64,000 bases of DNA from Daedaleopsis sinensis (Eukaryota; Basidiomycota; Agaricomycetes; Polyporales; Polyporaceae), in NCBI GenBank assembly GCA_033807695.1, contig CM066301.1, positions 4,712,001 through 4,776,000 of the forward strand, given 5' to 3'. Shown here piece by piece: positions 1-54,429 of this stretch. The position numbers and the translations under genes were made by a program. Below the pieces are notes generated by a model, which was not told the origin of the DNA, ran no database searches, and worked only from the letters and a program-made list of their open reading frames with translations. Positions within the stretch are counted from its first letter, which is position 1. Every line of letters begins with the position of its first letter.

Positions 1-3000
1 TCTTGTCACGTCGGTGACTACAGTGTTTCTAAGGAGTCCGACTTGAAAGACACCCTTGAAGTCGAATATGTCGAGGATAGATGGGGGGATCCTAAGGTGC
101 GCACGCGTCTCCGGGCGGGAGTACGCGATCCTGCTACGGTCCTTCCAAGCCCACCCTCGTCTGCAGATCGCGACATATCTGATTGGCACGCACGCATGTT
201 GCATGATGCAGACCAAGTCGTCTTTGTTTCGAACCGGCACGATCCGAACCACAGCAAAGGTTGCTGGAAAGGGAACCCGCCGTCCTGTCGTGCCCGATTT
301 CCTCGGGAACTGTACCCTTCGACCATGGTAGACCGCACCAGTGGTGCAATCCGGTTCGCAAAGCAGGAAGCGTGGATCAATACCTACAACCCTGTACTTG
401 CTTATCTGCTTCGTTGCAATCATGACGTTACTTGTCTGCTGTCCGGCACGCAAGTGAAAGCCATTGTCGCCTACGTTACTGACTACGTCACCAAAACAAA
501 ACTCTCAACAGAGTCTTTTTTCGAATCTGTGCGCAGTGTTCTTCTCCGACATGACAAGATCCTCGCTGATGGGGAGCACATTCCTGGTGATGTCGCTAGG
601 TCCGTAATTGTTAAAGTAGTCAACGCGCTGTCAGCTTCAGCTGAGACAGGTGGACCAGCTGCTTGTGCATACCTGCTTGGCAACCCTGACCATTATACTG
701 ATCACGTCTTTAAGGTGTTCTTCTGGGGAGCGTACTGCCGAGCAGTTCGACCTATTCCCTCGGATCTAAATGTCGATGCATCACAGATCGAGAATGTTCG
801 TGATCGGGTGATGTTGGGGCATACTGCGAATGGAGTCGTACAAGTTAACAACGTTCAACATTATTCCTGTCGTCCTCGCCATTTTGACGGCATGTGCCTG
901 TATGACTATCTCGCTTCCGTAGACGTCAAAAAAATTCCTCACAAGGACGTTGATCCAGACGACGACGACGATAACCATCAACGGTCCGATGGTTCTCATT
1001 ATGGCTCTGACTCTTCGGACAATGAAGACGGTGACGATGACGTTCCTGCTCAAAAGTCCCGTGTTAAATACCATCGCTTCCTCGAACCACATACACTACG
1101 TACGACCCATGCAGTATATGAACGCCCGCAGTCTAAGCGTTACACTTTGAACTTTGCAGGCGGTGCCCTCCCTCGACCAGACCGCGGTGACCGCGAGGAC
1201 TACTGCTTTACCATGCTTGTGCTGTTCAAGCCGGACGGGTGGCGCACTGCTAGCGATCTGCGTTCACCTGCTCAAAGCTGGGAGTCAGCGTTCGACCAAA
1301 CTGATTTTCACCGTGAGCATGTTAAAGTCATGAAGAATATGAACGTACTGTACGAATGTCTTGACTCGCGTGATGATTATTCTGCACTCCGGCGCTCTGA
1401 GGCTCTCGCTGCTCTAGGGTCCTTTCCTACCGGCCACACGGACAACGATGGCTATCAGCATGAAGAAGAGCTTCCCGATGATACATTTTGGGAACATACT
1501 GAGGGCTCCTTGCATACTCTGTTGGAAGATGGCTGCATCGGGAAGCGCACAGCTAAGAACCAGTCAGAGATGAACAATGTGCGGGATTTGATTATCGGAT
1601 CGTCTCCAGAGGCTGACCCGGCAGAAGGCATCGCTGCGCATCCTCGTGGTCAGCGTACTACATACCAGTTGCCAGCTGAGTGGAAACAGGTAATACAAGT
1701 CGCTCGGAAGGCAGTTTTGGACCGCATGAAAGGAGATGCCCCCCCGCTGTCTGCACCGTCTACTCGCTCTACCGAGCCCAATGCCTTGCTCGATCCGCCC
1801 TTGTGGTTGCCCGACACGGGTGTAGTGCACGAGGTAACTTTGGATGAGTTGGACCGGCTGCATGCCGTTGATGTCACAGCTATCCCTCGCGCTCCGCAAG
1901 ACCCGCACATATCTTTGCTACATGATGTCGTAGATCAGTACAGTTTGAACGGTGAGCAGCAACGTGCCTTTCTTATACCGGCTCGACATCTGCATCACCA
2001 TGAGAAGGAGCAGTTGCGTATGTACTTGGGTGGGATGGGCGGTACCGGCAAATCCCGTGTGTTGCTGGCTACCATGACGTTTCTGGACAAGCGCGGGGAG
2101 GGCTATCGCTTCATCGTTCTCGGTCCTACTGGCACAAGTGCTGCTCTTGTGGGCGGTTCCACTTATCACTCTGTGCTCGGGCTTGGAACTTCCTCCGACG
2201 CTGGTTTGATGACTCTCAAAGCTCTGGAGAAGATCAGGGGACGGTTGGAACGTGTGGATTTGGTGTTCATAGACGAGGTATCCATGATCTCCTGTCTAGC
2301 CCTTTTGCTGATACATATCCAATTGTCTAAGGCGTTCAACAACACCACCAGTAGCTTCGGTGGGAAGAGCATCATTCTCGCAGGAGATTTTGCTCAATTG
2401 CCGCCCCCAGGTCCTGCGCCTTCTCTGTACAGCGCATCTGTTGGTAAGTGGACCTCTTCGTCCTCTGCTCCACAACAGAAGTATGCCCTCGGAAAAGCGC
2501 TGTGGCACCAATTTACGACTGTAGTCATCCTTCGCCAGAACATGCGTCAGCGTGGTTTGTCAAATGGTGATAACCAGTTTCGAACCGCGCTCGAGAATAT
2601 GCGGTACGCTCGATGCACCGCCGCCGACATTGCCCTGTTGATGTCTCGGGTATGTCGTCCTCGAGCTGGAGATGTCTCCCATTTAGCTCCAAAGTTCAGG
2701 CATTTGTCGATCATTACTGCCAGAAACGCTCATAGAGATGCTATAAACGCGGTGAAAACCCGGCAATTTGCTGCAGACAATAATGTGCCTCTTTTCCACT
2801 TCCATTCTCTCGACAAATGGGGAAAGAACGTTGACAGCAGCTCCGTTCGACAAGCTCAGCGGTTGTACGCTAGCACGGTCGATCCTGTTAGGAAATCAAA
2901 CGAAATATCTCCTTTACTTCAAGCATCACTCTGGGACATTCCTCCCGCTTTATCAGAGCACCACGCAGGGAAGTTGTCGCTTTGTGTCGGTATGCCAGTC

Positions 3001-4707
3001 TTATTGAAACACAACGAGGCTACTGAGCTTTGCGCTACTAACGGCGCAGAGGCCGTCGTGCATGATTGGGTTTCTCGCGTAGTGAATGGGAAGCTCGTGT
3101 TGGACGTGTTGTTCGTGAAGCTCGTAAATCCTCCACGGTCTGTGCAATTGCCCGGCTTAGAACTAGATGTCATTCCTCTCACACGCACTCGTCGCAGCAT
3201 TCGCTGTACACTACCTGTTGGAGACCTAGTCGTCTCCATTCAGCGTGACCAGGTCATGGTTCTTCCAAACTTCGCCATGACTGACTTCGGCAGTCAAGGG
3301 CGGACCCGTGCTCATAACGCTGTACATTTGAAGCATTGTAAGACCCATCTATCTATATACACTTGCCTCTCTCGCAGCTCATCACTGGACGAGACTTTGA
3401 TAATTGACGGCTTTGAGCCTGCAAAAATAACCGGCGGCACATCTGGGGCTCTGAAACGAGAGTTTAGGGAACTTGAACTCCTGGACGAGATCACCCGGTT
3501 GTCGCTAGCAGGCACATTACCGGACACTGTCCTCGGCGAAACTCGTGCTACACTGCTCACCGCGTACCGCACCTGGAAAGGTCTGCACTTTGTGCCGCCG
3601 ACAGTGCCTACGGCGTTGGACTGGGCTACCGCTTCAGAGGACGAGCTACTGCCTTCTGACAGTGGTGCTCCATCGCATGCGCTGTCTCCCTCCTTACCTA
3701 GTGAACCTTCTCGGAAGCGCGGAGCTCCTTCACACCAGTGGACTGCGTCGGCTGCTCGCAAGAAGCAGAAGAATGCACTGGCCACTGTCGACCAGGCTGC
3801 TTACGACCGCGCTCTTCCTGTGACGAATCCTGTCCCTACCGCTCTAGTCGTTCCCAACAGAATGGGCCTTGTTTGGGATCATGACAATCCTAGTTGTGGT
3901 TATGATGCTGTTTTCACCGTACTATGGAACTTGTCTGTAGACACGAATTCCTCTTGGATGGACCAGCTTTGTCCAGATAACGGCCTCATGTCAGTCATCA
4001 AAACGGCAATGCGCTCGGTGCGTACTCAGCCCGAGCAGCTAGAGGTGTGTAGGAACCGTGTCCGGGACATTTTAGATCTCATCGACAGCACCGCTTTCCC
4101 CCGCCGAGGGCGTACCACCGTGTCTGTCTCTCAACTAGCTCGTGTTTTGTTCATGTGTCCGGCAGCATTTGCGTCGCCCGTCGGTTCTTGTGCGACATGC
4201 GGCGTAGCATCTTCCTCTCTTCCGGACATCGGGCGATGTTACTTGTGGTTGCCGACTGTGGAGTGGACACGTACAACATTCACTGGACTGACCTCGATTT
4301 CTATTCAGGACTACGCTACGCGGTTGCTCCAGCAAACATCTAACGCTCCTTGCGGTTTTTGCAGTGCATATATGGAGACGTCGATGCACATCGTAACCCC
4401 ACCTCCATTACTGCTGTTCGAGAACAGCACTGTCATGGAGCTATGCCCATCCAGACAAATCCATCTCGAGCAAGGCGCCATCCGGGCAGACTACGAATTA
4501 TGTGCTGTTATATACCACGGATTCGCTCACTACACTTGTCGTTACATCGATACGTCAGGTACGTTCTGGTACCACGATGGGGAAGCTACTAGGCGTTCAT
4601 GCATTCAGGAACAGGGTACCTTCACCGTGTCCTGGCTCTCAACAGCTCGTGGTCGCAGTGCTTGCCTCTTCGTCTACCGGCGACGCAGCTCTTCAGGATT
4701 TATGTAG
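1..4707 (+). CDS. Helitron Rep/PIF1-type helicase with USP-like C-terminal domain, 5' partial
   Basis: The frame is open from base 1 to the stop at 4705-4707, so the N-terminal part of the Rep nuclease, with its HUH motif, lies left of the window. Residues below count from the TTG codon at 43. A two-tyrosine Rep motif AYVTDYVTK is at about 143-151, after a Cys/His-rich stretch. The superfamily 1 helicase of the PIF1 class follows: Walker A GGMGGTGKS near 663, Walker B VFIDEVSM near 742, AGDFAQLPPPG near 781, LRQNMRQRG near 830 and a motif V/VI region with CLSRSSSLDE near 1110. The last 270 residues carry NPSCGYDAVFTVLWNL and, 200 residues later, HYTCRYID...WYHDG. These resemble the Cys and His boxes of ubiquitin-specific proteases. 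In Helitrons Rep nicks and joins single strands and the helicase unwinds during rolling-circle transposition. No intron or frameshift was seen, so the copy may be recently active. Confidence 0.93.
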   Translation, partial: SCHVGDYSVSKESDLKDTLEVEYVEDRWGDPKVRTRLRAGVRDPATVLPSPPSSADRDISDWHARMLHDADQVVFVSNRHDPNHSKGCWKGNPPSCRARFPRELYPSTMVDRTSGAIRFAKQEAWINTYNPVLAYLLRCNHDVTCLLSGTQVKAIVAYVTDYVTKTKLSTESFFESVRSVLLRHDKILADGEHIPGDVARSVIVKVVNALSASAETGGPAACAYLLGNPDHYTDHVFKVFFWGAYCRAVRPIPSDLNVDASQIENVRDRVMLGHTANGVVQVNNVQHYSCRPRHFDGMCLYDYLASVDVKKIPHKDVDPDDDDDNHQRSDGSHYGSDSSDNEDGDDDVPAQKSRVKYHRFLEPHTLRTTHAVYERPQSKRYTLNFAGGALPRPDRGDREDYCFTMLVLFKPDGWRTASDLRSPAQSWESAFDQTDFHREHVKVMKNMNVLYECLDSRDDYSALRRSEALAALGSFPTGHTDNDGYQHEEELPDDTFWEHTEGSLHTLLEDGCIGKRTAKNQSEMNNVRDLIIGSSPEADPAEGIAAHPRGQRTTYQLPAEWKQVIQVARKAVLDRMKGDAPPLSAPSTRSTEPNALLDPPLWLPDTGVVHEVTLDELDRLHAVDVTAIPRAPQDPHISLLHDVVDQYSLNGEQQRAFLIPARHLHHHEKEQLRMYLGGMGGTGKSRVLLATMTFLDKRGEGYRFIVLGPTGTSAALVGGSTYHSVLGLGTSSDAGLMTLKALEKIRGRLERVDLVFIDEVSMISCLALLLIHIQLSKAFNNTTSSFGGKSIILAGDFAQLPPPGPAPSLYSASVGKWTSSSSAPQQKYALGKALWHQFTTVVILRQNMRQRGLSNGDNQFRTALENMRYARCTAADIALLMSRVCRPRAGDVSHLAPKFRHLSIITARNAHRDAINAVKTRQFAADNNVPLFHFHSLDKWGKNVDSSSVRQAQRLYASTVDPVRKSNEISPLLQASLWDIPPALSEHHAGKLSLCVGMPVLLKHNEATELCATNGAEAVVHDWVSRVVNGKLVLDVLFVKLVNPPRSVQLPGLELDVIPLTRTRRSIRCTLPVGDLVVSIQRDQVMVLPNFAMTDFGSQGRTRAHNAVHLKHCKTHLSIYTCLSRSSSLDETLIIDGFEPAKITGGTSGALKREFRELELLDEITRLSLAGTLPDTVLGETRATLLTAYRTWKGLHFVPPTVPTALDWATASEDELLPSDSGAPSHALSPSLPSEPSRKRGAPSHQWTASAARKKQKNALATVDQAAYDRALPVTNPVPTALVVPNRMGLVWDHDNPSCGYDAVFTVLWNLSVDTNSSWMDQLCPDNGLMSVIKTAMRSVRTQPEQLEVCRNRVRDILDLIDSTAFPRRGRTTVSVSQLARVLFMCPAAFASPVGSCATCGVASSSLPDIGRCYLWLPTVEWTRTTFTGLTSISIQDYATRLLQQTSNAPCGFCSAYMETSMHIVTPPPLLLFENSTVMELCPSRQIHLEQGAIRADYELCAVIYHGFAHYTCRYIDTSGTFWYHDGEATRRSCIQEQGTFTVSWLSTARGRSACLFVYRRRSSSGFM

Positions 4708-4856: not shown

Positions 4857-4969
4857 CCAGGATTATCTTCATTTATAGAACACGCAACTGCTGCGGCACT
4901 TCGTAGCCCAGAAAACGTAACACTCTACGACGCCGTTAGTTGAGTTGTGCTCCTGCGACCGTAAGTCAC

Positions 4970-5314
4970 TCACTTCTTCAGTGCGCTCTTGGCGGCATAG
5001 ATGTCTTCGCGCCTCATATTGACCATGGACGCATCAGAGTTCACGAACGCCATCTTGAAGACGAGAGCTTCTCCGTTCCATAGCTTCCTCCCCCCTTGGT
5101 TTCTCTCTGCCTGCTGTGGACCAGCGACGTACACGGTAAATCTTCTCCATACCGTGCCTTCCTTAGTGGTCTTCACGAACAACCGGACCATCTTTGCAGG
5201 GGCTTGCATCGTGAATGACATATCCGTCAGAGGAATGTCTATTCCACCGGCCGAGGTGTACCGGTGAGCAATTGCATGTGCAAACTGCCACTGTGCGTTT
5301 GGTGACACGGTCAT
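4970..5314 (-). CDS. Small orphan protein, 114 aa
   Basis: A single-exon minus-strand frame with an ATG start (5314) and a stop at 4970-4972. The sequence is mixed alpha/beta with even composition, for example KMVRLFVKTTKEGTVWRRFT and WNGEALVFKMAFVNSD, which argues against chance. I do not recognise a family. It converges with the Helitron helicase and is transcribed in the same direction as the OB-like gene at 7123-6057. A GTGAGT overlaps the stop, so the frame could be the first exon of a longer gene. Confidence 0.45.
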   Translation of the reverse strand: MTVSPNAQWQFAHAIAHRYTSAGGIDIPLTDMSFTMQAPAKMVRLFVKTTKEGTVWRRFTVYVAGPQQAERNQGGRKLWNGEALVFKMAFVNSDASMVNMRREDIYAAKSALKK

Positions 5315-6056
5315 GCACCTCAGCGATACTGGCTAGGATAAGTCAGCACATCGTCGCTGTGTATCGGACCGCGTACTGACCTTGTACGACATTCCAGGTC
5401 CTGGTTTCTTCCTGTGTCAACTCACATACTCCGTGACTTTATCTTCCGTCCGTCCCGTAAACTGAACACATCGCATTCGTTCCGATCGTTCCCGTCGGTA
5501 TCTGTTGCATGCGTGATGGTGTACTACACTAGTGTATCATATGACCCTAGCGGTCATCGCCCATGCCCAACGTAACTGTGCTTCACAGGTACAGTCTGCT
5601 ATGGTTCTCCAGTGGTGACGTTTTGCCCAGCCTAGTGGCATCTTTAAAGAACCCACGAGAGGCCTAGTACTGGTAGGTGATACCCCGCATCCCTGGTACC
5701 CTGTTATCTGTCGTGGCGTGCTGCAGCCTCCACTGCTTACTACTACCCTGTCTCGCAGAACCCGAGTACTACTGCCACCACAAGTACTACGCTCAACTTA
5801 GGGCCGTGTTCGTATCCGTACGTAAATCACCTCACGAGATAATTCGTAAATCTCACCACTCCAACTTCTACCGCGGCGCTGGGTCACGCCCTCCGAACAA
5901 GTCCGCTCACCTTACAATGCGCTGTGCTTTGCGGTTCATGCCAGCATATTCAGTCTGGTTCGGCGACTCCTGTAATCACCACCTATCTCACATGTTATAG
6001 AGCTGTAGCCACCGACACAAAACATAACACATATGTTACATACAACACGCAGTATC
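5315..6056. other. Intergenic region with no supported gene
   Basis: Contains only short unconvincing frames on both strands. No tRNA, long repeat or terminal inverted repeat was recognised. It is the 3' flank of the minus-strand OB-like gene. Confidence 0.5.
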
Positions 6057-7123
6057 CTATACGGTGTCCATCTGGACATCATCCGCAAAATCCATCCCTT
6101 CAGGTCGACTGACCGTAGGAACTTGTTGCGCGCCTTCTCGGATTTGGCGAGGAACGGTGCTGAAGAGCGCCTGAAGAGGTAGACATCAGCGCTGGCATTA
6201 ATCTTGCACTCTGCGTGCAGAACAGAGACGTACCTTCGCCTCCGATGCTCCCTTCATGCGTACCACCTCCTGCGGACAGAACTGTACCTCATGCTTCCGC
6301 CCGTTCCTCGTCTTCATACTAACCACCTCCACTGCGACCAGCACGTCCACGAAATCGCCCTTGCGGATCGCCATAGGAGGAATCGCGTACACTAAACCGT
6401 CGTCCTTCTGAACGCCCAACTTCACCCGATGGTCAACTACCCATTTGTGGGATATACGAGCAGCTTTGCCCAGCGGATCGTCCCTCGAGCTGAGGGGAAC
6501 AGCTTGCAGCGCGTTCGTGTCTTCCTCCCGAATCTAAATGCCGGTCAGCTTTCTCATCTCGACTCCGTTACTACTACTCACCATCGTAAACACCCTTCGC
6601 TTCAATCGTATAGAACCTTTGCGGGCCGTACGCGAGGTCCTGGGCGAACCCATCACCGTGCACACGATCTCCTCCAACGCGATCAGGCCATCACATTGCG
6701 GGTCGAACGCCTCGGACACCCCTCCGGATGTTAACATCAACGTCTGCATTGCTTTCGGGGCACCTTGTTCGTCTCTACATGAATCAATCAGTACATATTA
6801 CGCAAAGACACCACACATACTCACCCATTCCAGTTACCCAACGGGTACAGGCTAGCCTCGGACACGACACCTTGGACGCGGATCATGAACTGCATCACGA
6901 CGCCCTGCTTCTCGAGACTATCGTGGGCGACGAGAACGAGAGGATTGCTCATACCCCCTCTGTCGACCGTTACACGTTCTGCGAGCTCTTCGATGGTGGT
7001 CGGCAAATACTTCCACAACGGTATATCGCCTTTCTGGGTTATCGGCTTCCCCATGTTGAACGGCCACTTGTCACGGTAGAGCACGGTCCCAGCTGGATCA
7101 CTGTCAGTCTCCATCCTCTCCAT
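6057..7123 (-). CDS. Divergent OB-fold-like (SSB-like) protein, 301 aa, 4 exons
   Basis: Exons 7123-6825, 6774-6582, 6533-6234 and 6170-6057 join in phase (2, 0, 0) into 302 codons including the stop, with GTGAGT, GTGAGT and GTACGT donors and TAG, TAG and CAG acceptors. The start is the ATG at 7123. The third exon has the family pattern of a KDD turn, then KGDFVDVLVAVEVV, then EVQFCPQEVVRM. This parallels the last exon of the four plus-strand paralogs at 8.3-14.2 kb. The C-terminus is acidic (GMDFADDVQMDTV) like the protein-docking tails of single-strand DNA-binding proteins. The first exon has PLVLVAHDS followed by a beta-like stretch, possibly a first OB half. Function is inferred only: nucleic-acid binding next to a rolling-circle transposase. 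Confidence 0.72.
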
Positions 7124-8338
7124 TGGCACTGTGCGCACTTACATGCAAAGTAGGCCATGTCGTCGGTCAGAGACTACGTCCACCACGTCCCATGACCTGT
7201 ACAGGTTTATATGACCGTGCCGAACTCTGTGCACAATCCTGTCGTTATCGTGCAACGTCTATGTCCATTCTCTACTTGTCTTAGTCGCCACAGCCTCATC
7301 CTCCGCCTGCTCAGATGACGTGCGCCTGTTCCAAAGTCTCCTAACATTAGCCTCCTCCACATCACTCCTCTTTAGTGCAGCCCCATAGCACTACTGATTA
7401 GTGTCGCCTCCGTTGTGACGCCACCCCAGCATGCTCAGCAAATTTCTGACCTCCCAAATCACGCCATGTCAACATTTTCTGACCACAACGTAAGTCAAGC
7501 CCTCCTCATCATGTTATCCACTCACAGAAATGAACCAATCAGCATGTACTCGTCCAGATGTGATCACTACTCTGATCAATCCGTGATGAGCTTGAGCTCT
7601 ACTGCTTTCAGTCCTTCCCTTTAAAGGCCACCGTCTACAACGCCCGCTACCCCCACCCTCCTCTCTCCGTCCCGTCTAGTGATGAACACCCGTCTTACAC
7701 GCACAAGGATCAGCCATTCAGGAGAACGTCCGGATGTGAAGCGACTTCGCACTGAGTTCGTAACCTCTTCTTCTTATGTTATCATCCTCTCACTGATCCC
7801 AACCGTCATCCAGATCGGGGGCGGTCTCAGAATCCCCGAACATCACAGCTCGCACTGCAGAACAAACCGGCGACGTTGTCAAAGTACCTGCGACTGTCGC
7901 TGACCATCTCGAATCCTCCCCTCCCTCTCCGACCGCTACCGCAGATCAGCAGCCTGCCCGGGACCCTTCCTCAGCTACCACTGTGGTCAGCACCGTGCCT
8001 ACTTCCCCTACTGCGACCGCACGCTCTGCTCCCGCGCATGACGGCATCTCCCTCCCGTGTGTTCTGTGCTTCCCCTCACTCCATACGATGAGCAGAGCAC
8101 TGACTGCCCGTGGCTCATTGCCACCTGCAGCGTCATATCCATCTCGGCTACAACGCCGAATAGAACCTCAGCGTTGAAACCGGACAACAGCACATCATTC
8201 CCGTGTGTATTCTCCGTTACCACTCTGCATAGTTCGAACACGGTGCTGACTACGTATGCTTAGCTTGCACTTCGTTGGCAACACCAAGGTCGCGCATGGA
8301 CCAGGTGGAGCTGTGTACGTGGACCGCCTCCCAGCTGT
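7124..8338. other. Intergenic region between divergent OB-like genes
   Basis: Separates the minus-strand gene from the first plus-strand paralog and should hold both promoters. At 7682-8180 there are Ser/Thr/Pro-rich plus-strand frames that could be extra 5' exons of the gene at 8339, but I could not join them in phase, so they are not annotated as coding. Confidence 0.4.
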
Positions 8339-9485
8339 ATGCTTACTTATAACTTACGCTTACGCTGCTCCTCGCACAGCACATCTACGTCAGACTCAGC
8401 GTCGAGGTCAGTTTCCCGTGAACACATCTTTCGTCCATCCGCTTACCGTTCCTGTCACAGTCCGGCTACTCCGAGTGATTCGTCAGCGAGCACTATCTCC
8501 AGTGTCCACTGCGCCGACCACAAGGATGCCCATACCCCTGCGGTTCCTCCAGCAACCGTCAATGATACAGGACACTTGGACAAGACCGAGCCTGTCTCAT
8601 CCTCCAATGTCCAGCCGTCTGGGGAAGTGACTCCAGAAAGGGATCCATCCTTTGACGGCCTTGACTATGTACCCGCGGACGTGCTTCGGTGAGTATTCCG
8701 GAACAGTATGCTCGCGAATGTTCCCTCACTGTTGTTGCATAGTCGTGCACGAGAATTTACACAGAAAGTTGACACCGTCCATTCGCGCTTTTCCATCAGT
8801 AAGCTACCCACCGATATCCGCTGGGGCACCTCCTACAAAACGGAACGTGTGCTATGCGACAACAACAACAAGCCGCTGACGCTCTGGCTCCTGGTCAAAG
8901 TCAAGAGTAAGTCGTTTTACGATCGTGATGGCAATCCACTGGGCAGGGTATATCTCTCCGGAGAATTACCGTTCGATGGGGATTACCAAGCGCTCTGCGA
9001 TTTGTATGAGCGGTTCGGATCCAGCACCGGTCAGTTGCGTGCCTGTGATAACATGTTACCATCTACCTGACATTCTCCATCCCAAGAACCGCCTTCTCCC
9101 GTGGTGTATGCGAATAGGTTCCAAACTCGCCAAGTGAAGGGCCAGGAAAAACCCGCGGTGAGCTGTCATTGTATCTCTCCCCTTCGCGGTTCTCATGTCG
9201 ATGCAGATCGACCCGTTCGATGCCCTTTACGATGCCCGACAGAAATTTCGCTCCAAAAAGGACATGTCCTCCTTCCCGGCATACCGCATCGGGCCTGGAG
9301 ACGTCGGTCTCCTCGAGGTGGCCTTCACGCGGTGGAAGGCGACCAAGGAAGCGAAATCGTCCCGGGCGTGGACGACGTGGGAGCTGAGCTTTGATTTGCA
9401 GGGTTTTTCCATCCTGTATGAGGCTCCTGCTGGTGCAGCTATCGACGGTCCGACTGAGGTTCCCGATTTCGAAGATGATATGTAA
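8339..9485 (+). CDS. OB-fold-like array member 1 with acidic tail, 328 aa, 4 exons
   Basis: Exons 8339-8688, 8743-9029, 9087-9157 and 9207-9485 join in phases 2, 1, 0 into 329 codons including the stop at 9483-9485. The first 116 residues are Ser/Thr/Pro-rich and probably disordered. The second exon has WGTSYKTERVLC, then KPLTLWLLVKV and GRVYLSGELPF, read as the first beta strands of an OB-like barrel. The last exon has YDARQKFRSKKDM, GDVGLLEVAFTRW and WELSFDLQGFSILYEAP, followed by an acidic end EVPDFEDDM. Acidic tips of this kind mark bacterial and phage single-strand DNA-binding proteins. Order of strands, tail and neighbourhood suggest an SSB-like accessory protein, but no family was identified with certainty. 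Confidence 0.8.
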
Positions 9486-10434
9486 TGTTACTTACTCTCG
9501 TTGACCGTATAACAATCGTGTATGTATGTACTATAAGCCGACTCAATCACACGTCATCGTTTATCGCAAACCTTAAGTTGTTGAACAGCGTGTGCTAGCG
9601 CCTACCTCTCTACTCCAAATCGCGAGCCTCAACTGCCCACCGATACCCAAACCCAATATCATTTTCTACTAATCCCTCCCTGAACACGACACCTTGAATC
9701 GCTTCTTCGCCTCAATCCTAGCCAGTACGCCGCCTCCGCACAGCGGCACGATCGCACAGGAGTCACTGTTGTCGACCAACAAGCGCGGCAAGGTGCAGGA
9801 AGGAGACTCGGACGGAGCTGCTCTCGCGTTGCGCGACTTCGGGAAGTAGGCAGTTGAGGAGATCTACCAGAAAGCAGCTGAAGGATGGTTTCGTTCTGGG
9901 ACATGTACGTGTCCGTTTCCTCTTTCACTGGTACTTACGCGCGCACCAATCCCTGACATGGACCACGCCTAGAAGACGACGTATGAGAAGTTATCTGCGT
10001 TCTCGCAGGCCTGCTCGGGCTGATGAGCACGCGAACTCGTTCAAGACTATGCTGTACAGCAACACGACGACCCGGTTCCAGAGCGCCTTCATGGCCAAAG
10101 CAACCAGCGGACGAGCGAGGTGCGGCGCGAACACTTCTCGTGATCCATCCCCTTGCACGACTCCGCGCCCAACCAAGATACCGTCCAGTTCTCCCTGCTT
10201 TACAACACGCGTTCATCGATGTCAGTCTCGGCGTTGTTATCTATGACGTTCACCACCGATATCTTCCACACAAACACATACCCCTGTGAATGAGCCGCTC
10301 GGTGATCCACCATGCTTCTTTAGTATCCATGTCCCCAGCCGCAGTGCCGTTCCAAGTATCCCATAAAGTGCTGGTCATACTGCTGAACCGTTATAATATC
10401 CCCCCGCCATCTGCTTGGCTGCATTAGTTGTTCC
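9486..10434 (+). pseudogene. Broken fragments of an unidentified gene between array members 1 and 2
   Basis: At about 9697-9850 a plus-strand frame reads FFASILASTPPPHSGTIAQ up to GAALALRDFGK, meets TAG, and continues AVEEIYQKAAEGWF. Near 9973 KTTYEKLSAFSQ and near 10020 ADEHANSFKTMLYSNTTTRF look like later pieces in other frames. The pieces look protein-like but need a stop and at least one frame change to be read through. I do not recognise the family and it does not match the OB-like pattern. Confidence 0.35.
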
Positions 10435-11258
10435 ATGTCCGCCTCTCTGGAGCTGGTCCTATACGTCCCGCAAGTCACGAATGCACCCCCTACCCTACCT
10501 TCATCGTCAATTATGGATGGAGACACATTTCAAGACGATACTCTCTTCTTAGAAAACTGGGTTAACCGACGAGCAATTCCGTACGTGCGCCAACTTTCTT
10601 CAGCCCGTTCTGTCCCAACCGTTAACTTTCATTCCACTTCCAGAAGACTATACCGCCTGATGCTACACACCTCGTTGTCCCCACACGGCCTACCTCTCAC
10701 TACCGCCGCTGATCAATGCAAGTGGGGTAAAGGCTTGAACAAAGACATCCTCTGCTGTGCGGACGGTTCTCCTTGCCCCATATACGCGGTGGGTACGTTG
10801 GACGCCGTCGGCTCATCCTACGGCCCTACAAGACCCACCACGTTCATGATTCGCCTCGACTTCCTGCGCATTCATGATCATACGGCACACTGGACTCTTC
10901 TTGATCGCGTGTCGACCGACATCGGTATGTCCACACAACCTTCGCCTGTCTTCTTCCGCTCATCCACGTCGTTTCGGCAGTCGCTACACCACCGTTCACC
11001 ATGAACGCAATCAAAGTGAACGTGAGTGACAACTTGCCCCATACTACCACCACTGAACGTCCGCAGGCCACCCCTTCTGTGTACGACGGCACGAAACGTG
11101 TTCGCGCAAAGAATGACATGGTGGAGCTCGCATTTGACAACCTTCACAAGAACGACATCGTTCTTGGTGAAGTTTTTGGTATGCGCGACGGCATAGATCG
11201 TGCATGGGCTGTTTCGTTTCACATCCACGCGCTTACGTTGCTTCTCCGTGCTCCTTGA
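10435..11258 (+). CDS. OB-fold-like array member 2, 219 aa, 4 exons
   Basis: Exons 10435-10580, 10644-10924, 10981-11021 and 11067-11258 join in phases 2, 1, 0 to 220 codons including the stop. The plan is the same as in the gene at 8339-9485. The second exon has the CPIYAVGTLDAV and FMIRLDFLRIHDH strands. The last exon has VYDGTKRVRAKNDM, KNDIVLGEVFGMRD and WAVSFHIHALTLLLRAP and stops right after the final strand, so the acidic tail is absent. The 45-bp third intron is a multiple of three and open, so it could be retained. A second ATG at 10513 is also possible as start. Role is unknown; probably the same fold as its neighbours. Confidence 0.78.
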
Positions 11259-11575
11259 ACATCGGTGCATTCACGTGTTGCGAGATGTGTACTAGTGCAT
11301 TCCCTAAATGTTACAAACCTGTTTCTCCACTAGTTTCCTGCATTCCAACAGCGTGTTTGACGATGCGCTCCTGACAGTGACCATACCTTGTTCGATACAT
11401 TATTTGATTCACTTTCCCCTATGTGAGATCATGCACAGCTTCCAAAAGCACCCCACCTTACTAGAACCGATATGCTCTGGACACGTTAGGTCACCGCCGA
11501 CTCGCAGCCGCTTCGTTCTCCCTATCTTGCTTACTCACTCACGACCTCGACCTCACCCCTTCTTAACTGGCTGCG
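11259..11575. other. Spacer between array members 2 and 3
   Basis: About 320 bp, pyrimidine-rich towards the right. No gene was seen; presumably the terminator of member 2 and promoter of member 3. Confidence 0.5.
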
Positions 11576-12511
11576 ATGGTCATGACTCCGCACACAGTCC
11601 CCGCCGCTGTCATCATGTCATCCCCACTCCCCCATACTTCGTCCTCACCTTCTGAATCTCGTCCTGCTTCCCCTCTGGAACCTCAGCCATATCCAGAAGA
11701 GGCGTTCCAGCCCCAGCCCGATCCGGTTGAGCTCCCACTACATCCTCTCATCGACGACCGAACTATCGTTGTTTCAGGACCGGTCAACAGCGGTATCCTC
11801 CGGTACGCTCACTGGCGCTAAGCCTCTCTCTGCTAGACTGACTCCCATTCACAGCCGTCTGCACCGTGTAGTGAACAGCACCATCCCTGGCAGATACGCA
11901 CGTACCTTGTCCAGAATACCCAGGTCCGCAACATGGGCCCCCATCGGCAACCCACAATACTTGTCGATGAGGGACAATCCACTCAGTTTTTTCGTCGTCG
12001 GCACCATCGACCACGTCTACAACTTCGACCGCACAAACAGCCCCGCTGGGCGTGCACAGCTTCAGGTACAGTTTGTGCGCGCTCTCGACCATATCGCCAT
12101 GACTCGACTCCTTGACATGGCTCAACCACCTCCAAGTACGTTCATTAATGCATTGCTGAACTGTGTGCTGACCGCACTGCAGTGCAGTATCCTGAACACC
12201 TCACCACGTACAAACTCTTGGGTACCCGCCGCCAGGTGCGAACCTTTTTGTTTCAATTTCCACTATTGCAGTGCCCGATGACAACTTTCCAGGTATACCC
12301 GCACGTGTACGATGGTACTATGGGTATTAGCTGCAAAGAAGGCATGAACACTCTGGGCTGGAACGTGCTAGAACGCGGGCAGATCGTTTTGTTGGAGATG
12401 AGGTGCGGTCGTCGCTCGCGTACTGGAGGCCTCCGCCCGGTGTGGTTTGATCTGGTGTCTGTCACTATGTTATATCGACAGCGCAATGTCCTCCCGCTCC
12501 AAGCCATCTGA
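11576..12511 (+). CDS. OB-fold-like array member 3, 266 aa, 4 exons
   Basis: Exons 11576-11802, 11855-12135, 12183-12235 and 12272-12511 join in phases 2, 1, 0 to 267 codons including the stop. The second exon is 281 bp, the same length as in member 2. The first 65 residues are Pro/Ser/Glu-rich. The conserved part has NPLSFFVVGTIDHV, AQLQVQFVRALDHIA, then VYDGTMGISCKEGM, RGQIVLLEMRCGRR and VWFDLVSVTMLYR. A short intron of 36 bp precedes the last exon and is a multiple of three, so splicing there is uncertain. No acidic tail. Unknown function; a sister of the adjacent genes. Confidence 0.78.
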
Positions 12512-13420
12512 CCCAGTGGCCATCCTATGTGTACTCGCACCGCCCCTACAACTTAGATCTCACACATACCGAGTACTCCATTACCGTTAATTTAAATGAA
12601 TTTACCGAGTCGAGCACCCACTGTTTAAGTGAGCGATTCCTGGCGCTTCCATCTTTCCACCTTCCCACATTTTCCGACCCCACTGACTGTGCCCTACAGA
12701 GCTACAGCTCGCTCACACTGTCGTCTTGTCCGTGTCATGTCACACGCTCTCACTCGTACTACACCTACGTCCCCGCCATCTCCCGACGCATTCACAGACT
12801 GGGGTACATTGGTCAACGCATTTCACGACTATGACTGCCTCGAGCACGACATACATCACAACCACTAGTACGAATCCAACCTAACTTATGCCAATCTCTG
12901 GGTACCGCTACAGTGAGTGCTCCATACACCTTCCCCAGAGCGAGACTGATACATTGAATACATTTCCGGCTGGTCATACTGTCTCAGTCCCTGCCACTAC
13001 TCTGTGGTCGTACTGTCTCAGTCCCTGCCACTTCTCTGTATACGGTAAGGGACTAGTGCACATGTACATGTACCAATGACGGACACGGTCTCCCCCTAAT
13101 CGAACTAATCACAATACATCTTTACTGTGGTGAAAGTGGTACGACTTCGCACTTCCAGATCGCGAACATAACTTCAACTGATAGCGGACTATACTACTAG
13201 TCCCAACGATCGGCTCTACTTCACTGGTAAGTGTTCGATCCTTGGCATAGCACACTCGATCACATCAGACATGTCTTACCAACTTATCCGCACCGCAGAC
13301 CGCACTGTCTTCGGTACCGTACCACTGTGTCCACTATCTGCCCAATCCACCGACACGTACTACGCTATCCACTGCTTATATCCTCACCCTCATCATACAC
13401 TCCTTCTATTGCTAACCAGC
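12512..13420. other. Spacer between array members 3 and 4, with a 34-bp tandem duplication
   Basis: Short plus-strand frames only. It contains two adjacent near-identical 34-bp units at 12971-13004 and 13005-13038 (core TACTGTCTCAGTCCCTGCCA). No coding exon could be tied to either flanking gene with confidence. Confidence 0.5.
12971..13038. repeat. 34-bp direct tandem duplication
   Basis: Two units of 34 bp, differing at two or three positions, both containing CTGTCTCAGTCCCTGCCACT. It lies in the spacer before array member 4. A simple local duplication. Confidence 0.85.
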
Positions 13421-14220
13421 ATGAACTCGGCTCACGTTCAGAACACCCGCGAGCTCGTCGCGTCCGACGTCGAGCAGGCTAGCGCAGCACTGACGTTGCC
13501 GAATTGGGTCTCACACACGCAATCCCAGTACGTCTTCGCATCCACCACTCGCCATCCATAACACTAACTTCCTCAACAGCCGAATATCCGCAATTCTCCA
13601 CGCGAACCTGTATTCCTTCCCCTCCCGTCCTCTGTCTGAGGTACCTACACGGGCCAGCTGGGGCTCCACCATCAACTGGGATACAATGTGCCGGATCCGA
13701 GGCGAATGCCCTTTACCGTTCTTCTTCATTGGAGCCGTCCTAGACGTTGACATTCTACAAGGAGCTGGAAGACCGACTGTGATCCGCATGGAATTAGACT
13801 TTGTGCGATCGCGGGACCGAGTTGCTTACAATGGACTGCTCCGCATCCTTGGTGACCGTCATAGTAAGTCTTGCACTCACTGCTTCTGTGTGCTGCCAAC
13901 GCTGACTATACTTCCTCTATAGTTCAACTGCCCGGAACAATTGCGGTATCAAACACAGTCTCTCCTGGGGTGAGTGTCTTCTCCTCTGCCTACACTTCCT
14001 CCAAGTCCCAACGACTACTCAGGTCCCCGCGACTGTATGGGATGCGAGGCTTCGTCTCCGACCTATCCCTCATATGGCAATGCTGCCCGTAAACTTCGTA
14101 TCACGTAACGACATCATCATTGTACAGTCTCTAGCTACACGCGATCGCAGAACCGGTCAATGGGTAGTCAACTTCTTATACACTGCTCTGTACCTGCTAC
14201 TTGAAGCGCCGAATCCGTAG
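13421..14220 (+). CDS. OB-fold-like array member 4, 211 aa, 4 exons
   Basis: Exons 13421-13527, 13580-13863, 13923-13969 and 14023-14220 join in phases 2, 1, 0 to 212 codons including the TAG at 14218-14220. The start is the ATG at 13421; an in-frame-looking upstream ATG at 13271 is possible. The second exon has SWGSTINWDTMC, CPLPFFFIGAVLDV and RMELDFVRSRDRVA. The last has VWDARLRLRPIPHM, RNDIIIVQSLATRD and WVVNFLYTALYLLLEAP. The residue pattern and exon plan match the three upstream genes, so these are tandem duplicates that have diverged strongly while staying open. Confidence 0.78.
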
Positions 14221-14757: not shown

Positions 14758-15040
14758 ACCTCGCTGAGCATTGACACTCCCATTCAGGATGACGGCATCA
14801 TCGATTCCCAGCGACGTGGCCGACCAACCGTCCATCTCATCATGTTTTTGCCGCCACCACTGTCGCCTACTGTCCTGCACCCCAGAGAACTACACATCGT
14901 CAATTAACATTCAGTTCTTATCTTTACTTGACCAACTACTACCTATACTCGAGCTGTCTACAAAATATGTTCTCTCAAATAAGCAGGTGGAATCGGACCT
15001 AGCGTGCGAAGCATCGCGATCACTAACCAAGTTGTCGGAA
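14758..15040. other. Short intergenic stretch
   Basis: No gene supported. The minus-strand frame at 14880-14629 overlaps the small plus-strand gene and lacks splice or family support. Confidence 0.4.
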
Positions 15041-23108: not shown

Positions 23109-24846
23109 GGAAGATGGTGGTAGGAGAGAAAGAAGGGAGCAGATTCAGATTGTGGAGAGCGTGCCAAGGATGTATGTCACCGATCTCATCTTCTCCCGCA
23201 GCTTGGCTCCCCTGCTCGCTCCACCACGATGTCATCGGCGACCAAGACCGCAGAGGGAGGACGGTGCGTCCAAGTGGCCGGCCACGCTGTTCACCGACTC
23301 GCCGATGTCCGTAATCGCGACGAGCTGCCGACCTGAGAATTAATGCGGGAGAGAGGAAGTACTTGCGCAGGGCTGTATAATTGTCGAGGGGCGGCGCAGG
23401 ATAATATGGTGGGGGAGGGGGGAGGGACTCGGTCTAGGCTGCGTGTTTGCGTGGAACGAGATGTATTTTGTGGCTACTCTGTACAGTTCGAGACCGTGCT
23501 GCCACTCGAGCAAGAGGGGGAGAGGGAGGAGAACGAGAGCGAGAGGGGGAGAACGATCGCAGAAAATGAACATGCGGGCGCTTACATGCCCATTTTCGGA
23601 CATTCGAAATCGCACCACCACCACCTTCTCCGCCACCGTCTCCGTCGCCCGTTCCACACTCGCTGCCGCTCTTTCGTCTGTCCTAAACAGTGCCGCTAAC
23701 TGCGTACTGAAGTCTACCTTGTCAGCTTCAAACACACTCGGATACGCGCACTCACCTAAGTAGCACGTGCCACGCGGCGACGCCGTGGACGTCGATCACG
23801 AACTCCTGCAGGTGTGTCCCACTCCTCTTATCTCTCCGTTCCGCCACTCTCATCCTGCACCCACCTCCCTCGTCCCCGCCGCCCCTCGTCGCCTCTCGTG
23901 TCCCCGACGTCCTGCACCCTCTCCGCATCGATGCCTGTGTCCGCGTTCACCTGCCGATTCCCGCGAGCGCTTGCCGCGTGACGTCACCGCTGAACCTTCG
24001 CGTCGACGTCGCCGTCGACAAGGTACATACCCAGACGCAACGTCGCGTCTCTGCCCTGTTACTCCAGGCCGCACCGCTCGTCGGCCGTCCCGGGACCTCG
24101 TCGAGGACCGCGCATCGCCCAGGTGAGTCGTCCGTCCCCCGTCAACGTGCGTACTCGGACGCGGAATAGCGTCGCTGCTCTGTGGAGGCCGGGCGACGTT
24201 GCGTAGCCGTCCACCGCGTCGAGGGACTGTCTAATGTCATCCTCGACGGCCGCGGCTTGCCGCCGGAGCCCCGCCAGAAATCCGGAGGTTTGTTGAGGTC
24301 TGAACACGCATAAGTATGCGTGTAATTGAGTTGGCACGCCGTTTACGAACCGCCGTTTACGAAACTCGCGTCGTGGGCCTCCTGAGTCCAAATGCGCATC
24401 ACGACGTCAGCAATGACGTCGTCGGCGGTCTCGCCGCCTGTACTGATCTGTCCGCTGACGAACATCCCGCAGAGTGAGCCGCCGCGAACACTCGAAAGAA
24501 GACCCGATGGACTCACCGTGTCGGCCTTCCCCGCTGTGTGCCCCGCAGATCTTGCGCCTTACGCGACGCCGGCCTCACGAATTACGCCAATTTTAGGCGA
24601 AGGTCAGTATTTTCGGGTGCTCGCCCGTAGTTGTACACATACCTCGAATACACCAGCTTCCGGGAACATGATCCGGAGAACCGTGCCACGCCGTTCGCCA
24701 GCGTGAACAGCACGGACGTCGGTGCACAGGTCAGCCGTGCTTGCCACTGTCATGCGACGTCGCGTCGCCGCCGTGAGCACAGTGCCTAGGAAAGGAAAGA
24801 AGAAAAAGGCACGTACCTCGAGGCTGACAGCAGACTCGTCTATGAC
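23109..24846. other. Region with unassigned minus-strand gene fragments
   Basis: Protein-like minus-strand pieces occur without a recognisable whole: QLVAITDIGESVNSVAGHLD (about 23330), FEADKVDFSTQLAALFRTDE (about 23730), LQEFVIDVHGVAAWHVLLR ending at a GTGAGT donor (about 23810) and SGFLAGLRRQAAAVEDDIRQ (about 24280). They may be exons of one decayed gene upstream of the senescence-type relic. No family was identified. Confidence 0.35.
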
Positions 24847-24974
24847 TGGGGTGGTCCTCTTCCCCTGTAAGTCCGAGTCGTCCGACGACGACCGTCCGGA
24901 GCTGCAACGGCCTAGAATCAAGCTTACGGAGAGACTAAACGCTAATCCCTGCAAGGACAGCAATTTAACGTTTC

Positions 24975-25230
24975 ACTGAGAAAATCAAAATTACTCACCA
25001 TGAACTCAAGTCTCGAAGGCAGGCTGCGCCACTGCATGAGTCCGGGATTGAAGCCACGTTCAAGAGCCAGCCTGAGGCAGGGTTTTGGGAAGATCCATAC
25101 GGCCAGTGAAATGTGTGTCGAGAACTCAAGGCGTATGTTTGAATGGGCGAGCCCCTATATACGTACGGAGGAGACTGGAGCACCTTCAGAAGCTGCTCCG
25201 AATCTCAAGTCAAACATTTGCTTGTTATAG
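24975..25230 (+). other. Unassigned frame in duplicated unit, copy 1
   Basis: An ATG frame at 25000-25230 reads MNSSLEGRLRHCMSPGLKPR and onward for 76 residues. It is repeated at 29577-29807. No family, splice partner or regulatory context supports it as a gene. Confidence 0.15.
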
Positions 25231-25514
25231 CAACGTCTGCGCGCACGACGCAGCTTCTGGAAACCGCAAACAAACCAGTCCGTCTGCACTATGGGGTCCA
25301 GGCGCCCCTGTTGCTGGCCCGGGTGATGGGAGTGAGTTGACGATCGAGTGCGCAGCTCGCGTCACGAGCTCGGGCCTGGCCAAATGATATCGATAGAGGA
25401 CTATGGTATTAGTAACACGAAAACGAACGTCGCCAGAGAATGAACGGATTGACGCTCTCGCGTGGGTATAGAATCCAATTGCAGCAAGGACCTGGGAGGA
25501 GCAGTCGGGGGCCC

Positions 25515-26860
25515 TCAGAGGCCGATGACGGTGAGCAGCCGGTTGAAGTCGGGCGTGCCCAATCCAGTGACCTACACGTCGCGGCATGAATGTCAGCGTC
25601 GGGGAATGCAGGGAGCGCAGAGAGCACAAGACACGTACCGGGTCCCATCCAGTCGTCGCCGGGAAGCCGTCTGTTTCGCACCCCGGGTTGCTCCCCTACG
25701 TGACGTCGTCGAGCGCGACGCGCCCGCTCGAGTACAGGAACGGGTTGAGGAAGCCCATCGTGGACTTGCCCTCGGCGATGAGCCGGTCGTTGAGGGAAGA
25801 GACGATGCTCGCGACGAGCGGCGCGCTCGCGCTCGTCCCGGACACGGGCAAGATCGTGCCGCCGATGTTCACCTGGCAGTTGACCCCCGCGGCGGAGATA
25901 TCGGGGTAGCCGCGCCCGCCGGTGTTGAAGAGCCCAGAGTTGGTGTCTCCGAGGAAGTCAAGGTAGGAGCCGACCGAGTCTTGCTGGTAGGTGGGCTGGT
26001 CGAACAAGGTCGAGAAGCCGCCCGATGAGAAATCTGCAGCGGCCTCGGGGGAGACACCCTAGGTCGCACTGAACGACTATCACGCTGTTGAGATGCTTAG
26101 CGTGAGTGTCGTGGTGCGAGGACGTGCCCATATACTCACAAGGGGCAGCCGGACGGGAAGGTCGGGCGGGGAACGTTGTACAAGTGCCACCCTGATCGTC
26201 GTCCACACCGCTGTCTCCGGACGAGAAAAAGATCGACGTGACACGCGCGCCGAGCTGAGCGTAGGCGTTGCAGAAGTTGCTGTCGACAATGATCCGGGAT
26301 TAGCTCTGAAGTGCCCACGAGTGGAACTGCACACGTACTTCGCGAGATCTTGAGAGACGAGTTCGTCCGGAAACCGAAAGAAGTCGTGAAGACGGTGGGC
26401 GGCCGGTCGTCCGCGATAAGCGCATTGACAAGGTTCAGAAAGCCCGTCAGGTCGCCGTCGTTGCTAGCTCCTACGCTGATGAACGTAATCGGTACCTCTG
26501 TCGCGATTCCAACTGTGCACTGGGTATCCGAGATCTACAGATCGCGCGAGTCAGGCAAGTCGCAGCGCATCTCAAACCAACATGAGCAATACGTACGCCT
26601 TCGACGCTGGGTTGCTCATCGTTCTCGCCGTCGTTCAGGACCGCGAGCTGGAAGGTCGTGTCACTCTGCATGTCCGGGCGCAACTTTGCTAAGGAAGCTG
26701 GACAAGTCGGACTGGCTAGCGAACGAGTCGGCGAAGCTGCTGACGACCATCTTGTTCGCATCCTGTGTCGCTGGCTCGGTCGGGATATTGAACAGCTCTT
26801 GGAGACACTTCGGGATCATAGCCTTCGCGCAGCCTGCGTCGGCTTGCGTCGGCTTGACCC
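25515..26860 (-). pseudogene. Sedolisin (S53) serine-carboxyl peptidase, decayed, copy 1
   Basis: Minus-strand pieces in order: IPKCLQELFNIPTEPATQ at the start of the catalytic domain, MQSDTTFQLAVLNDGENDEQ, QCTVGIATEVPITFISVGAS, DDRPPTVFTTSFGFPDELVS, FFSSGDSGVDDDQGGTC, PRPTFPSGCPL, LFDQPTYQQDSVGSYLDFLG, GYPDISAAGVNCQVN, SGTSASAPLVASIVSSLNDR and GSNPGCETDGFPATTGWDP, ending GLGTPDFNRLLTVIGL. The Glu, Asp and Ser (GTSASAP) of the sedolisin triad are all visible. Damage: a frameshift near FLSK (about 26690), further frame changes, a TAG in the VT-GSNPG turn (about 25690), and no signal peptide or prodomain. Secreted tripeptidyl-peptidases of this family are acid proteases. Confidence 0.85.
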
Positions 26861-27020
26861 GCGCGCGCGGTCAGCGCGCCGTTGCCGCTTTCGTCGCCTG
26901 TGCGGGGAACCTACACACGCGGTTGTTTGCATCAGTTTCACCCTGCTGCATTGCCTCCTACCTCTGATCCTCCCAGACGGCCCGAGCTCCCACCGGACCC
27001 CGGTATCAAGAACGGATGAC

Positions 27021-28085
27021 TCACGAAGTCGCAGGGTACACGAAGTCAACGAACGGCTTCATGCTTTGGGGGAGGGAGTACGCCATCGTGCGGACTACCG
27101 TGACGCCAGTGTCCGAGTTCTTGTACTGAGCGCGGTGTCTGGTTCCCTCCGCGTCCGCGAGATGGTGGTATGCCGACGAGCCGTGTAGGCGGTGGTGTCT
27201 GCGAAGCGGACTGCGCGGCGAGTTCTGACTGAATGACAGTCTCGACGTCGTCGTACTTATGCGTACGTTCTCAGGCTTAAGATCTGCACCCCGTACAGCG
27301 TCAGCTTCTTCAGCACAGAGGATCTGTTCGTGATCTGCTTGACGACGTGCATGGGCACGCCCTTGTTCCGGTGGCGCTTGATGAGGCCGAGTGGGTTCTC
27401 GCCTAACACCTCTAACACCATGCAGACGCCGTTCGAGCCTTTGTGTCGGAAGTCGTCTCTGAGATGATGATACGGGAGGATTCGGGTTCTCGGTAGAGGG
27501 GTGTACGGCAAGTGTGGAGGAGGTGATGAGTCGTTGTACGAGCTTGATCTCGGCGTAGCGAGCGGCGGACTTGACGACCTTGAGTGCTACATGGCGGTTT
27601 AATCTGATAGGAGCTGTTAGCGGGGATGCGATTGAGAGAAGCGACGTCGACGTCAGCTCAGGGACAGTTTGCGAATGAGCTCGAAGATCCCGCAGCTGCG
27701 ACGATGTATGTGCCGGAGAGCAGCGACATACGGCAATGAATAGGCGGATAACGGAAGTCAGAGTCCCTGAGATGCGCCATATCATTCTATACGACGAAGC
27801 AGCGGTCGAAAGCGAGGCGAACGCCGGTACGAACGCACACAACGGTCTCGTCGCTCTAACGACCAACTCCGATGGGCTGTTCGTGGCGTCGGGGAGGGTA
27901 GGTGACATAACGGCGAGAAAAAAAGCGCTCATTTTGAATCCTTTGCCAACCAGACGGTCGAGAAGTGCCCCCAGCCAAGCTTGCGAACGACGTTGATACC
28001 TGCCGTCGGAGAAGGAGTCGCCAATGTGTACGGGGTAGTACCCGCCCTTGACGTAGTCCTCCCAGTCTTCCTCGGTCTCGGTCAT
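27021..28085 (-). pseudogene. SRPK-type Ser/Thr kinase, truncated, copy 1
   Basis: An open frame starts MTETEEDWEDYVKGGYYPVH, then IGDSFSDGRYQ, the typical N-terminal entry of SR-protein kinases. Later come NRHVALKVVKSAARYAE (VAxK-type lysine), and in a shifted frame GSNGVCMVLEVLGENPLGL and RGVPMHVVKQ-like residues, then ADLKPENV (catalytic-loop lysine and Asn). The activation segment and C-lobe are missing: after a linker the frame runs into the sedolisin relic. The Gly-rich loop region is scrambled by unspliced intron or frameshift. It cannot encode an active kinase. Confidence 0.75.
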
Positions 28086-29423: not shown

Positions 29424-30091
29424 TGGGGTGGTCCTCTTCCCCTGTAAGTCCGAGTCGTCCGACGACGACCGTCCGGAGCTGCAACGGCCTAGAATCAAGC
29501 TTACGGAGAGACTAAACGCTAATCCCTGCAAGGACAGCAATTTAACGTTTCACTGAGAAAATCAAAATTACTCACCATGAACTCAAGTCTCGAAGGCAGG
29601 CTGCGCCACTGCATGAGTCCGGGATTGAAGCCACGTTCAAGAGCCAGCCTGAGGCAGGGTTTTGGGAAGATCCATACGGCCAGTGAAATGTGTGTCGAGA
29701 ACTCAAGGCGTATGTTTGAATGGGCGAGCCCCTATATACGTACGGAGGAGACTGGAGCACCTTCAGAAGCTGCTCCGAATCTCAAGTCAAACATTTGCTT
29801 GTTATAGCAACGTCTGCGCGCACGACGCAGCTTCTGGAAACCGCAAACAAACCAGTCCGTCTGCACTATGGGGTCCAGGCGCCCCTGTTGCTGGCCCGGG
29901 TGATGGGAGTGAGTTGACGATCGAGTGCGCAGCTCGCGTCACGAGCTCGGGCCTGGCCAAATGATATCGATAGAGGACTATGGTATTAGTAACACGAAAA
30001 CGAACGTCGCCAGAGAATGAACGGATTGACGCTCTCGCGTGGGTATAGAATCCAATTGCAGCAAGGACCTGGGAGGAGCAGTCGGGGGCCC

Positions 30092-31437: not shown

Positions 31438-31597
31438 GCGCGCGCGGTCAGCGCGCCGTTGCCGCTTTCGTCGCCTGTGCGGGGAACCTACACACGCGGT
31501 TGTTTGCATCAGTTTCACCCTGCTGCATTGCCTCCTACCTCTGATCCTCCCAGACGGCCCGAGCTCCCACCGGACCCCGGTATCAAGAACGGATGAC

Positions 31598-43551: not shown

Positions 43552-43863
43552 CCTTTTCGGAGCATCTGCCGAATCATCCTCCGCGGTGAAGCACAATTTG
43601 CAGGTAGCTGAAAATGGCCGTCTATAACGTGTGAGTACTGCCAGTGACACAAATACTAATGGAGCCGGTCAATTGGGGGACTCAGGATAACGCAACGCGA
43701 CAGTCGTCAACGCCGACGTAGGACTCCGACTCGGAGGAGGACCTTTTAGCAGAGCGCTAGGGGATGTCTTCTTGGCGCCCGAGTTCTTTGTGTACTACAT
43801 ACATACTCTTGCCTGCGCAATCTCTCCACCGTCTTTCCTCCCCATTCTTCCGCCCAACATAAC

Positions 43864-54353: not shown

Positions 54354-54429
54354 GCTAGGACGATCTGCTTGATCGATACACCTCTTCGAGGCGTCGGCGA
54401 GCATGACCAGAGCGATGTGGGGCTCTCTT
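54354..54429. repeat. Dispersed element, copy 2 of 4
   Basis: Part of the right R2 copy; same as 44935-45010. Confidence 0.85.

Follow-up and report, generated by a model that had tools for sequence, protein, structure and literature searches.

Helitron2 transposons are marked by asymmetric terminal inverted repeats and hairpins, according to the accessible part of one account (PMC5148889), and have been described with a single Rep/helicase open reading frame in the accessible text of another (PMC4067079). RPA-like genes have entered rolling-circle elements on at least three occasions, as stated in the available part of a third study (PMC4683698). What rolling-circle transposition needs beyond the Rep/helicase protein is an open question. 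A 64,000-nucleotide stretch of the basidiomycete Daedaleopsis sinensis (contig C2, 4712001-4776000; hereafter the window) contains the 3' part of a Helitron2-like element that carries much more than its Rep/helicase gene (RepHel). Downstream of RepHel lie a tandem array of four genes, g1 to g4, and two genes on the opposite strand, g0 and g5. By the gene models, these make up a cassette of six or more additional genes that belong to no known family, and the array is almost certainly part of a cassette that is resident in the element and selected with it. The features of the window are as follows.

8339..9485, plus strand: g1, array member, 328 codons, with a basic core and an acidic C-terminal tip; start codon uncertain
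10513..11258, plus strand: g2, array member, 193 codons
11576..12511, plus strand: g3, array member, 259 codons (alternative start 11615)
13421..14220, plus strand: g4, array member, 211 codons
1..15032, plus strand: in-window part of the Helitron2-like element, with ends taken from near-identical copies on contigs C9 and C3 and then matched here
14988..15032, plus strand: 3' end of the element, beginning TGGAATCGG, which is bases 3-11 of the 5' end in reverse complement
1..4707, plus strand: 3' part of the RepHel frame; the entire open frame has 2324 codons (C2:4709733-4716707)
4873..5392, minus strand: g0, small basic protein of 140 amino acids, isoelectric point 10.2, two introns; spliced model
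6057..7114, minus strand: g5, 298 amino acids, three introns; spliced model (start possibly 7123)

The array genes and the element that carries them

Judged by their models and alignments, g1 to g4 are real and homologous genes, old copies of one another that have since diverged. A preliminary description of this DNA had reported four intact plus-strand genes in tandem, and it is borne out by spliced models with zero internal stops and by BLASTP homology. The closest pair is g2/g4 (E 1.2e-22, 30% over 187 amino acids), followed by g2/g3 (1.9e-12), g1/g3 (1.9e-8) and g3/g4 (4.8e-8); the weakest are g1/g2 (1.5e-5) and g1/g4 (7.8e-5). Each gene has three GT-AG introns at aligned positions and with phases 2-1-0, in models that are predictions without RNA and whose introns were picked by eye. 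A splice finder blind to phase yielded 16 family models elsewhere in the genome: 13 of the 16 have three introns, with phases 2-1-0 in all 13. The three deviating models are C11_g1 (two introns, 1-0, at a locus that starts there), C4_g7 (a poor model) and C7b_g4 (a fragment). The sequence motifs by which the four genes had been grouped are present, but g3 and g4 fit them loosely: g3 has KEGM instead of KxDM and lacks the closing LLxAP, and g4 reads IPHM and NDIIIVQ. Two open stretches between cassette genes (window 7760-8180 and 9722-10246) have no match to the cassette profiles.

How do these genes stand to the transposon? They had been placed next to a Helitron transposase; the association holds, but the genes lie inside the ends of the element and not beside it. 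The whole element is 17,642 bp long, with its 5' end at C2:4709391, 2.6 kb upstream of the window. Its ends come from a block that is near-identical between C9:477128-501093 and C3:3768867-3808913, where an identity of 99.8-99.97% stops abruptly on both sides. The block starts with TTCCGATTCCACTAAAGAATCGG, at which a 7-pair hairpin is possible, and the motif that opens the 3' end starts 45 bases ahead of the block's last base, forming an asymmetric inverted repeat with the 5' start. The window element matches these ends with 0 of 23 mismatches at the 5' end and 5 of 45 at the 3' end, and the element on C4 has the same ends as those on C2, C9 and C3. Only short weak stems are predicted at the 3' end of the window element. 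Across the genome searched (51.6 Mb in 24 contigs), there are 10 occurrences of the 5' end pattern and 27 of the 3' core at up to three mismatches, and 0 of the reversed patterns.

The element thus bears the asymmetric terminal inverted repeat and 5' hairpin of Helitron2, together with Helitron marks: Rep (HUH) and helicase in one protein, and ends common to copies at different sites. By these sequence marks, it is a Helitron2-like rolling-circle transposon. The RepHel frame has a Rep match at C2:4711254-4711910 (E 1.1e-27), a PIF1 match (E 5.5e-18; Pfam), and HUH and Walker A motifs. Pfam gives no endonuclease match in window 1-4704, nor in the C-terminal part at E up to 10; the C-terminal AP endonuclease that defines Helentrons does not appear among the Pfam matches, and neither does an OTU domain. 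Read by eye, the C-terminal part (window 3840-4704) is suggestive of ubiquitin-specific proteases, having both a Cys box (NPSCGYDAVF) and a His box (HYTCRYIDTSGTFWYHDG) as well as two CxxC pairs; Pfam and PDB sequence searches with this part gave nothing.

Several other sequences share these ends. Five pairs of 5' and 3' ends lie 273 to 782 bp apart in the genome, at C5:1892808, C5:3589862, C9:641484, C9:3564415 and C9:879811, and the short elements that they bound are probably non-autonomous relatives. A 5.6-kb stretch at C10:2226324-2231875 lies between the same two ends. The C3 copy of the near-identical block is longer than the C9 copy by three insertions (C3:3770491-3771753, 3777489-3784894 and 3798258-3805663). 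The two 7.4-kb insertions have inverted ends like CATCAGCAAAA, and the remaining one splits the RepHel frame.

Inheritance and selection of the cassette

Together with g0 and g5, which sit between RepHel and g1, the array forms a longer cassette. The gene g0 has the same position and strand in the elements on C4, C9 and C3 and in a second element on C9, and g5 is 71% identical to its copy on C9. In these four elements, tblastn finds the same order and strands throughout: RepHel, then g0 and g5 on the opposite strand, then g1 and more members of the family. Hit coordinates give the same order for the copies on C11, where sequence was read over ~3.3 kb at each of three places. The C2, C4, C9, second C9 and C7 elements are 54-70% identical to one another in RepHel, and the cassette order is kept down to ~55%. 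The proposal that the array is a companion set of the Helitron is upheld by this retention of order and strand in related elements and by the position of the cassette inside the ends.

Are relatives of these genes found elsewhere? Genome-wide queries with the cassette genes except g2 (that is, g0, g1, g3, g4 and g5) gave 14 clusters of matches. Eleven of the 14 sit 2.8-12.7 kb from a Rep-domain match, although for four clusters on C11 the nearest Rep match may belong to another copy; in comparison, zones extending 25 kb around the 72 Rep matches cover ~6.2% of the genome. In this genome, therefore, the relatives are mainly near Helitrons and not away from them. The 11 clusters comprise the five elements that were read, on C2, C4, C9 (two) and C3, and six clusters on C11, three of which hold only g0 or g5. 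The other matches are a g4 fragment (C7:1937885) ~50 bp from a Helitron 3' end; a g3-like gene (C3:1010271-1011139), an open frame 10.9 kb from a Rep match of another score group and with no element end within the 10 kb examined; and a g3-like fragment on C12 (1941k) that stands alone. Screening 5,646 open segments with profiles added weak members in C4 and C9, so that arrays range from two to about seven members. Gene models outside the window are stop-free in 22 of 22 cases, from a finder that penalises stops, and several have no located start codon. In the ~105 kb of C11:2437926-2542351, at least seven Rep matches lie together with six cassette clusters, and near-identical copies occur there in either orientation.

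Selection on the array genes had been suggested from their intact frames, and comparison of the copies agrees: the proportion of nonsynonymous differences (pN) is below that of synonymous differences (pS) in 40 of 40 comparisons. In the C2-C9 comparison, RepHel has a pN of 0.20, g0 of 0.21, g5 of 0.17 and g1 of 0.21, against 0.29 for g2 and 0.32 for both g3 and g4, with pS at 0.70-0.82 and near saturation. The gap is narrowest in two of the comparisons that involve the second element on C9 (pN 0.50, pS 0.65-0.66). The two values are given separately, and not as a single dN/dS, because synonymous divergence (dS) is saturated in many pairs. By this substitution pattern, the cassette is under purifying selection.

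In a tree of 18 family members, g1 (support 100/100), g2 (93/94) and g4 (100/99) form clades that each branch as (C2,C9),C4. Each of these clades unites C2, C9 and C4 copies, and the duplications therefore predate the split of the elements. The g3 clade (99/97) also takes in copies from C11 and the second C9 element, an additional C9 gene, a C4 gene and the C3:1010k gene. Within it, C4_g3 groups with the extra C9 gene, g6, and not with g3 of C2, so that comparisons involving C4 g3 are not strictly orthologous.

The window contains other repeats. A tandem duplication of 4,578 bp (24846-29423 and 29423-34000) is 100% identical and reflects either a recent event or an assembly error. A 2.49-kb repeat (43551-46040 and 52970-55457) lies on the same strand in both copies, which are 99.8% identical.

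Possible functions of the cassette

The setting itself argues for the handling of single-stranded DNA (ssDNA), since single strands arise from RepHel activity and the uptake of RPA-like genes has precedents among rolling-circle elements. Bacterial single-strand DNA-binding proteins (SSBs) have an acidic C-terminal tail. The strongest sign in favour comes from g1, whose core has a net charge of +3 to +11 and whose last 12 residues carry -3 to -6 and end in Met, Leu or Ile, in five of five elements; the tail of T7 gp2.5, read for comparison, is acidic like the g1 tip. This combination is suggestive only, a hint from composition at an SSB-like role. The propensity map for the whole family predicts strands, one helix and a clear closing strand. 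That the g1-g4 family binds ssDNA is possible, with the balance tilted a little against it, and the same holds for this activity and cassette residence taken jointly.

How might such a system work? RepHel and the genes g0, g5 and g1 to g4 have almost certainly been inherited together through the divergence of several Helitron lineages. The array family, g1 foremost, would bind the ssDNA released by RepHel, keeping the strand open and protected. The tails of bacterial and T7 SSBs contact partner proteins, and the acidic tip of g1 might likewise contact a partner such as RepHel. The products of g2 to g4 could have diverged to act as partners within a single complex, or as variants active at other times, and those of g0 and g5 could be further DNA-handling subunits. 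The full proposal, which we advance tentatively and with somewhat less assurance than ssDNA binding itself, is that a mushroom Helitron2 lineage encodes a multi-protein ssDNA machine of its own, in which an SSB-like family expanded in tandem is joined by two conserved partners, and which derives from a protein family unrelated in sequence to RPA or SSB. If true, rolling-circle transposons would have gained a means of handling ssDNA independently once more, this time in the form of a module of several genes.

A number of observations weigh against ssDNA binding, however, and against a place in a known OB, SSB or RPA family. The preliminary description had likened the products to OB-fold proteins, but sensitive profile searches gave no credible Pfam, PHROG or PDB match. 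For g0 to g5 and the other family members, the best Pfam hit (E 0.0083, one of 18 members) is to a periplasmic glucan family; the best PHROGs value for the g1-g4 family and g5 is E 0.036, and the best for cassette profiles against PDB sequences is E 0.15. Thus, none of the three collections gave a sequence match to any OB, SSB or RPA family, and hhalign comparison with T7 gp2.5 finds nothing. Pattern matches for g1 and g5 in viral contigs and for g5 in prokaryote genomes numbered 23, 50 and 157, and none was confirmed. Structure models of g0 exon 2 and part of g5 are unusable, at a mean predicted local distance difference test score (pLDDT) of 44.5 and 30.6. The propensity map is ambiguous, because g1 alone reads the closing stretch partly as helix, and g2 to g4 have no acidic tip. 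The program hhalign connects g5 to the array only faintly, pairing their closing stretches at E 0.02 with a probability of 2.3%, and does not do so with g1 alone. The RPA families PF16900 and PF08646 occur at a single genome locus (C2:3.844 Mb), not in a Helitron. Membership of the products in any RPA or SSB family is therefore not supported; they are possibly ssDNA-binding proteins, and an OB fold is a possible architecture for them.

One related Helitron also goes without the cassette. The element at C7:129907-137726 is 7.8 kb long, with an open RepHel frame that shares 68-70% identity with its counterparts on C2, C9 and C4 and with the same kind of ends, apart from a small gap in the 5' end; C7:120001-140000 contains no cassette gene.

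Alternatively, a resident cassette might not bind ssDNA at all and instead counter host silencing or regulate the element, with the tandem family arising from an arms race. This reading, about as tentative as the multi-protein machine, is consistent with the variable array size, from two members to about seven with weak segments included, and with the faster evolution of g2, g3 and g4 (pN 0.29-0.32) than of RepHel, g0, g5 and g1 (0.17-0.21) between C2 and C9. Other fungal DNA transposons, Helitrons among them, carry TET/JBP genes that may act against silencing, according to the accessible part of one report (PMC12730594). However, Pfam finds no silencing-related domain in the cassette, and the rates of g1, g5 and g0 are close to that of RepHel, as expected of parts of the transposition machinery.

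Could the products instead be structural, coating the circular intermediate or forming a filament on it, for its transfer and not its replication? A small basic protein alongside multiple divergent copies of a single basic or neutral domain would suit such a role, for which nothing direct speaks; neither Pfam nor PHROGs gives a capsid or coat match, and we consider it improbable.

Passive cargo, that is, host genes that the element picked up by reading through its 3' end, is a slightly poorer candidate still. The cassette does lie downstream of RepHel, as do captured genes in Pleurotus Helitrons in the accessible part of their description (PMC4289320), and the C7 element does without it. Against this, the genome queries found no source copy save the unplaced C3:1010k gene and the C12 fragment, and selection and a common gene order extend across deep divergence. 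An ordinary host gene cluster lying beside a Helitron by chance, to which only the two unplaced g3-like sequences (C3:1010k and C12:1941k) would point, is scarcely credible for genes enclosed by the ends and copied along with them, the whole unit being 99.8-99.97% identical between C9 and C3.

Comparison with described systems

The resident cassette adds three protein families without known relatives (g0, g5 and g1-g4) in a clear biological setting. A cassette of six or more genes stays with RepHel, and a related Helitron on C7 lacks it; therefore, the question of what rolling-circle transposition needs becomes testable. Among the literature matches listed, there is no description of such a cassette in a fungal Helitron.

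The basic core and acidic C-terminal tip of T7 gp2.5 resemble g1 only, with no detectable sequence relation. FoHeli, the Helitron2 elements of Fusarium oxysporum, share with the window element a Rep-helicase, asymmetric terminal inverted repeats, a 5' hairpin and a 3' repeat some 40 bp from the end; they differ in being ~5-11 kb long and in having one extra gene of unknown kind, in one subgroup only, and no RPA-like gene turned up in them, by the accessible part of their description (PMC5148889). Helentrons are likewise rolling-circle elements with extra genes, which in the accessible account include RPA (PMC4067079). In contrast, the window element has no AP endonuclease or OTU match, and none of its extra genes has a match among RPA families.

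Plant Helitrons with RPA are similar in that an extra gene, thought to bind ssDNA, is kept with the element, but in the available text that gene is a recognisable RPA homologue, whereas here a family without relatives is present in several copies together with g0 and g5 (PMC4683698). HELPO1 of Pleurotus ostreatus is also from a basidiomycete and, in the accessible part of its description, has Helitron-only genes of unknown function 3' of RepHel (PMC4289320). Unlike the window element, it has canonical ends (T[C/G] and CTRR) and one to four cap genes, which are set beside g0-g5 by description only (PMC4289320). Within what that source and the others offer, the HELPO1 cap genes are the nearest fungal precedent seen for the cassette (PMC4289320).

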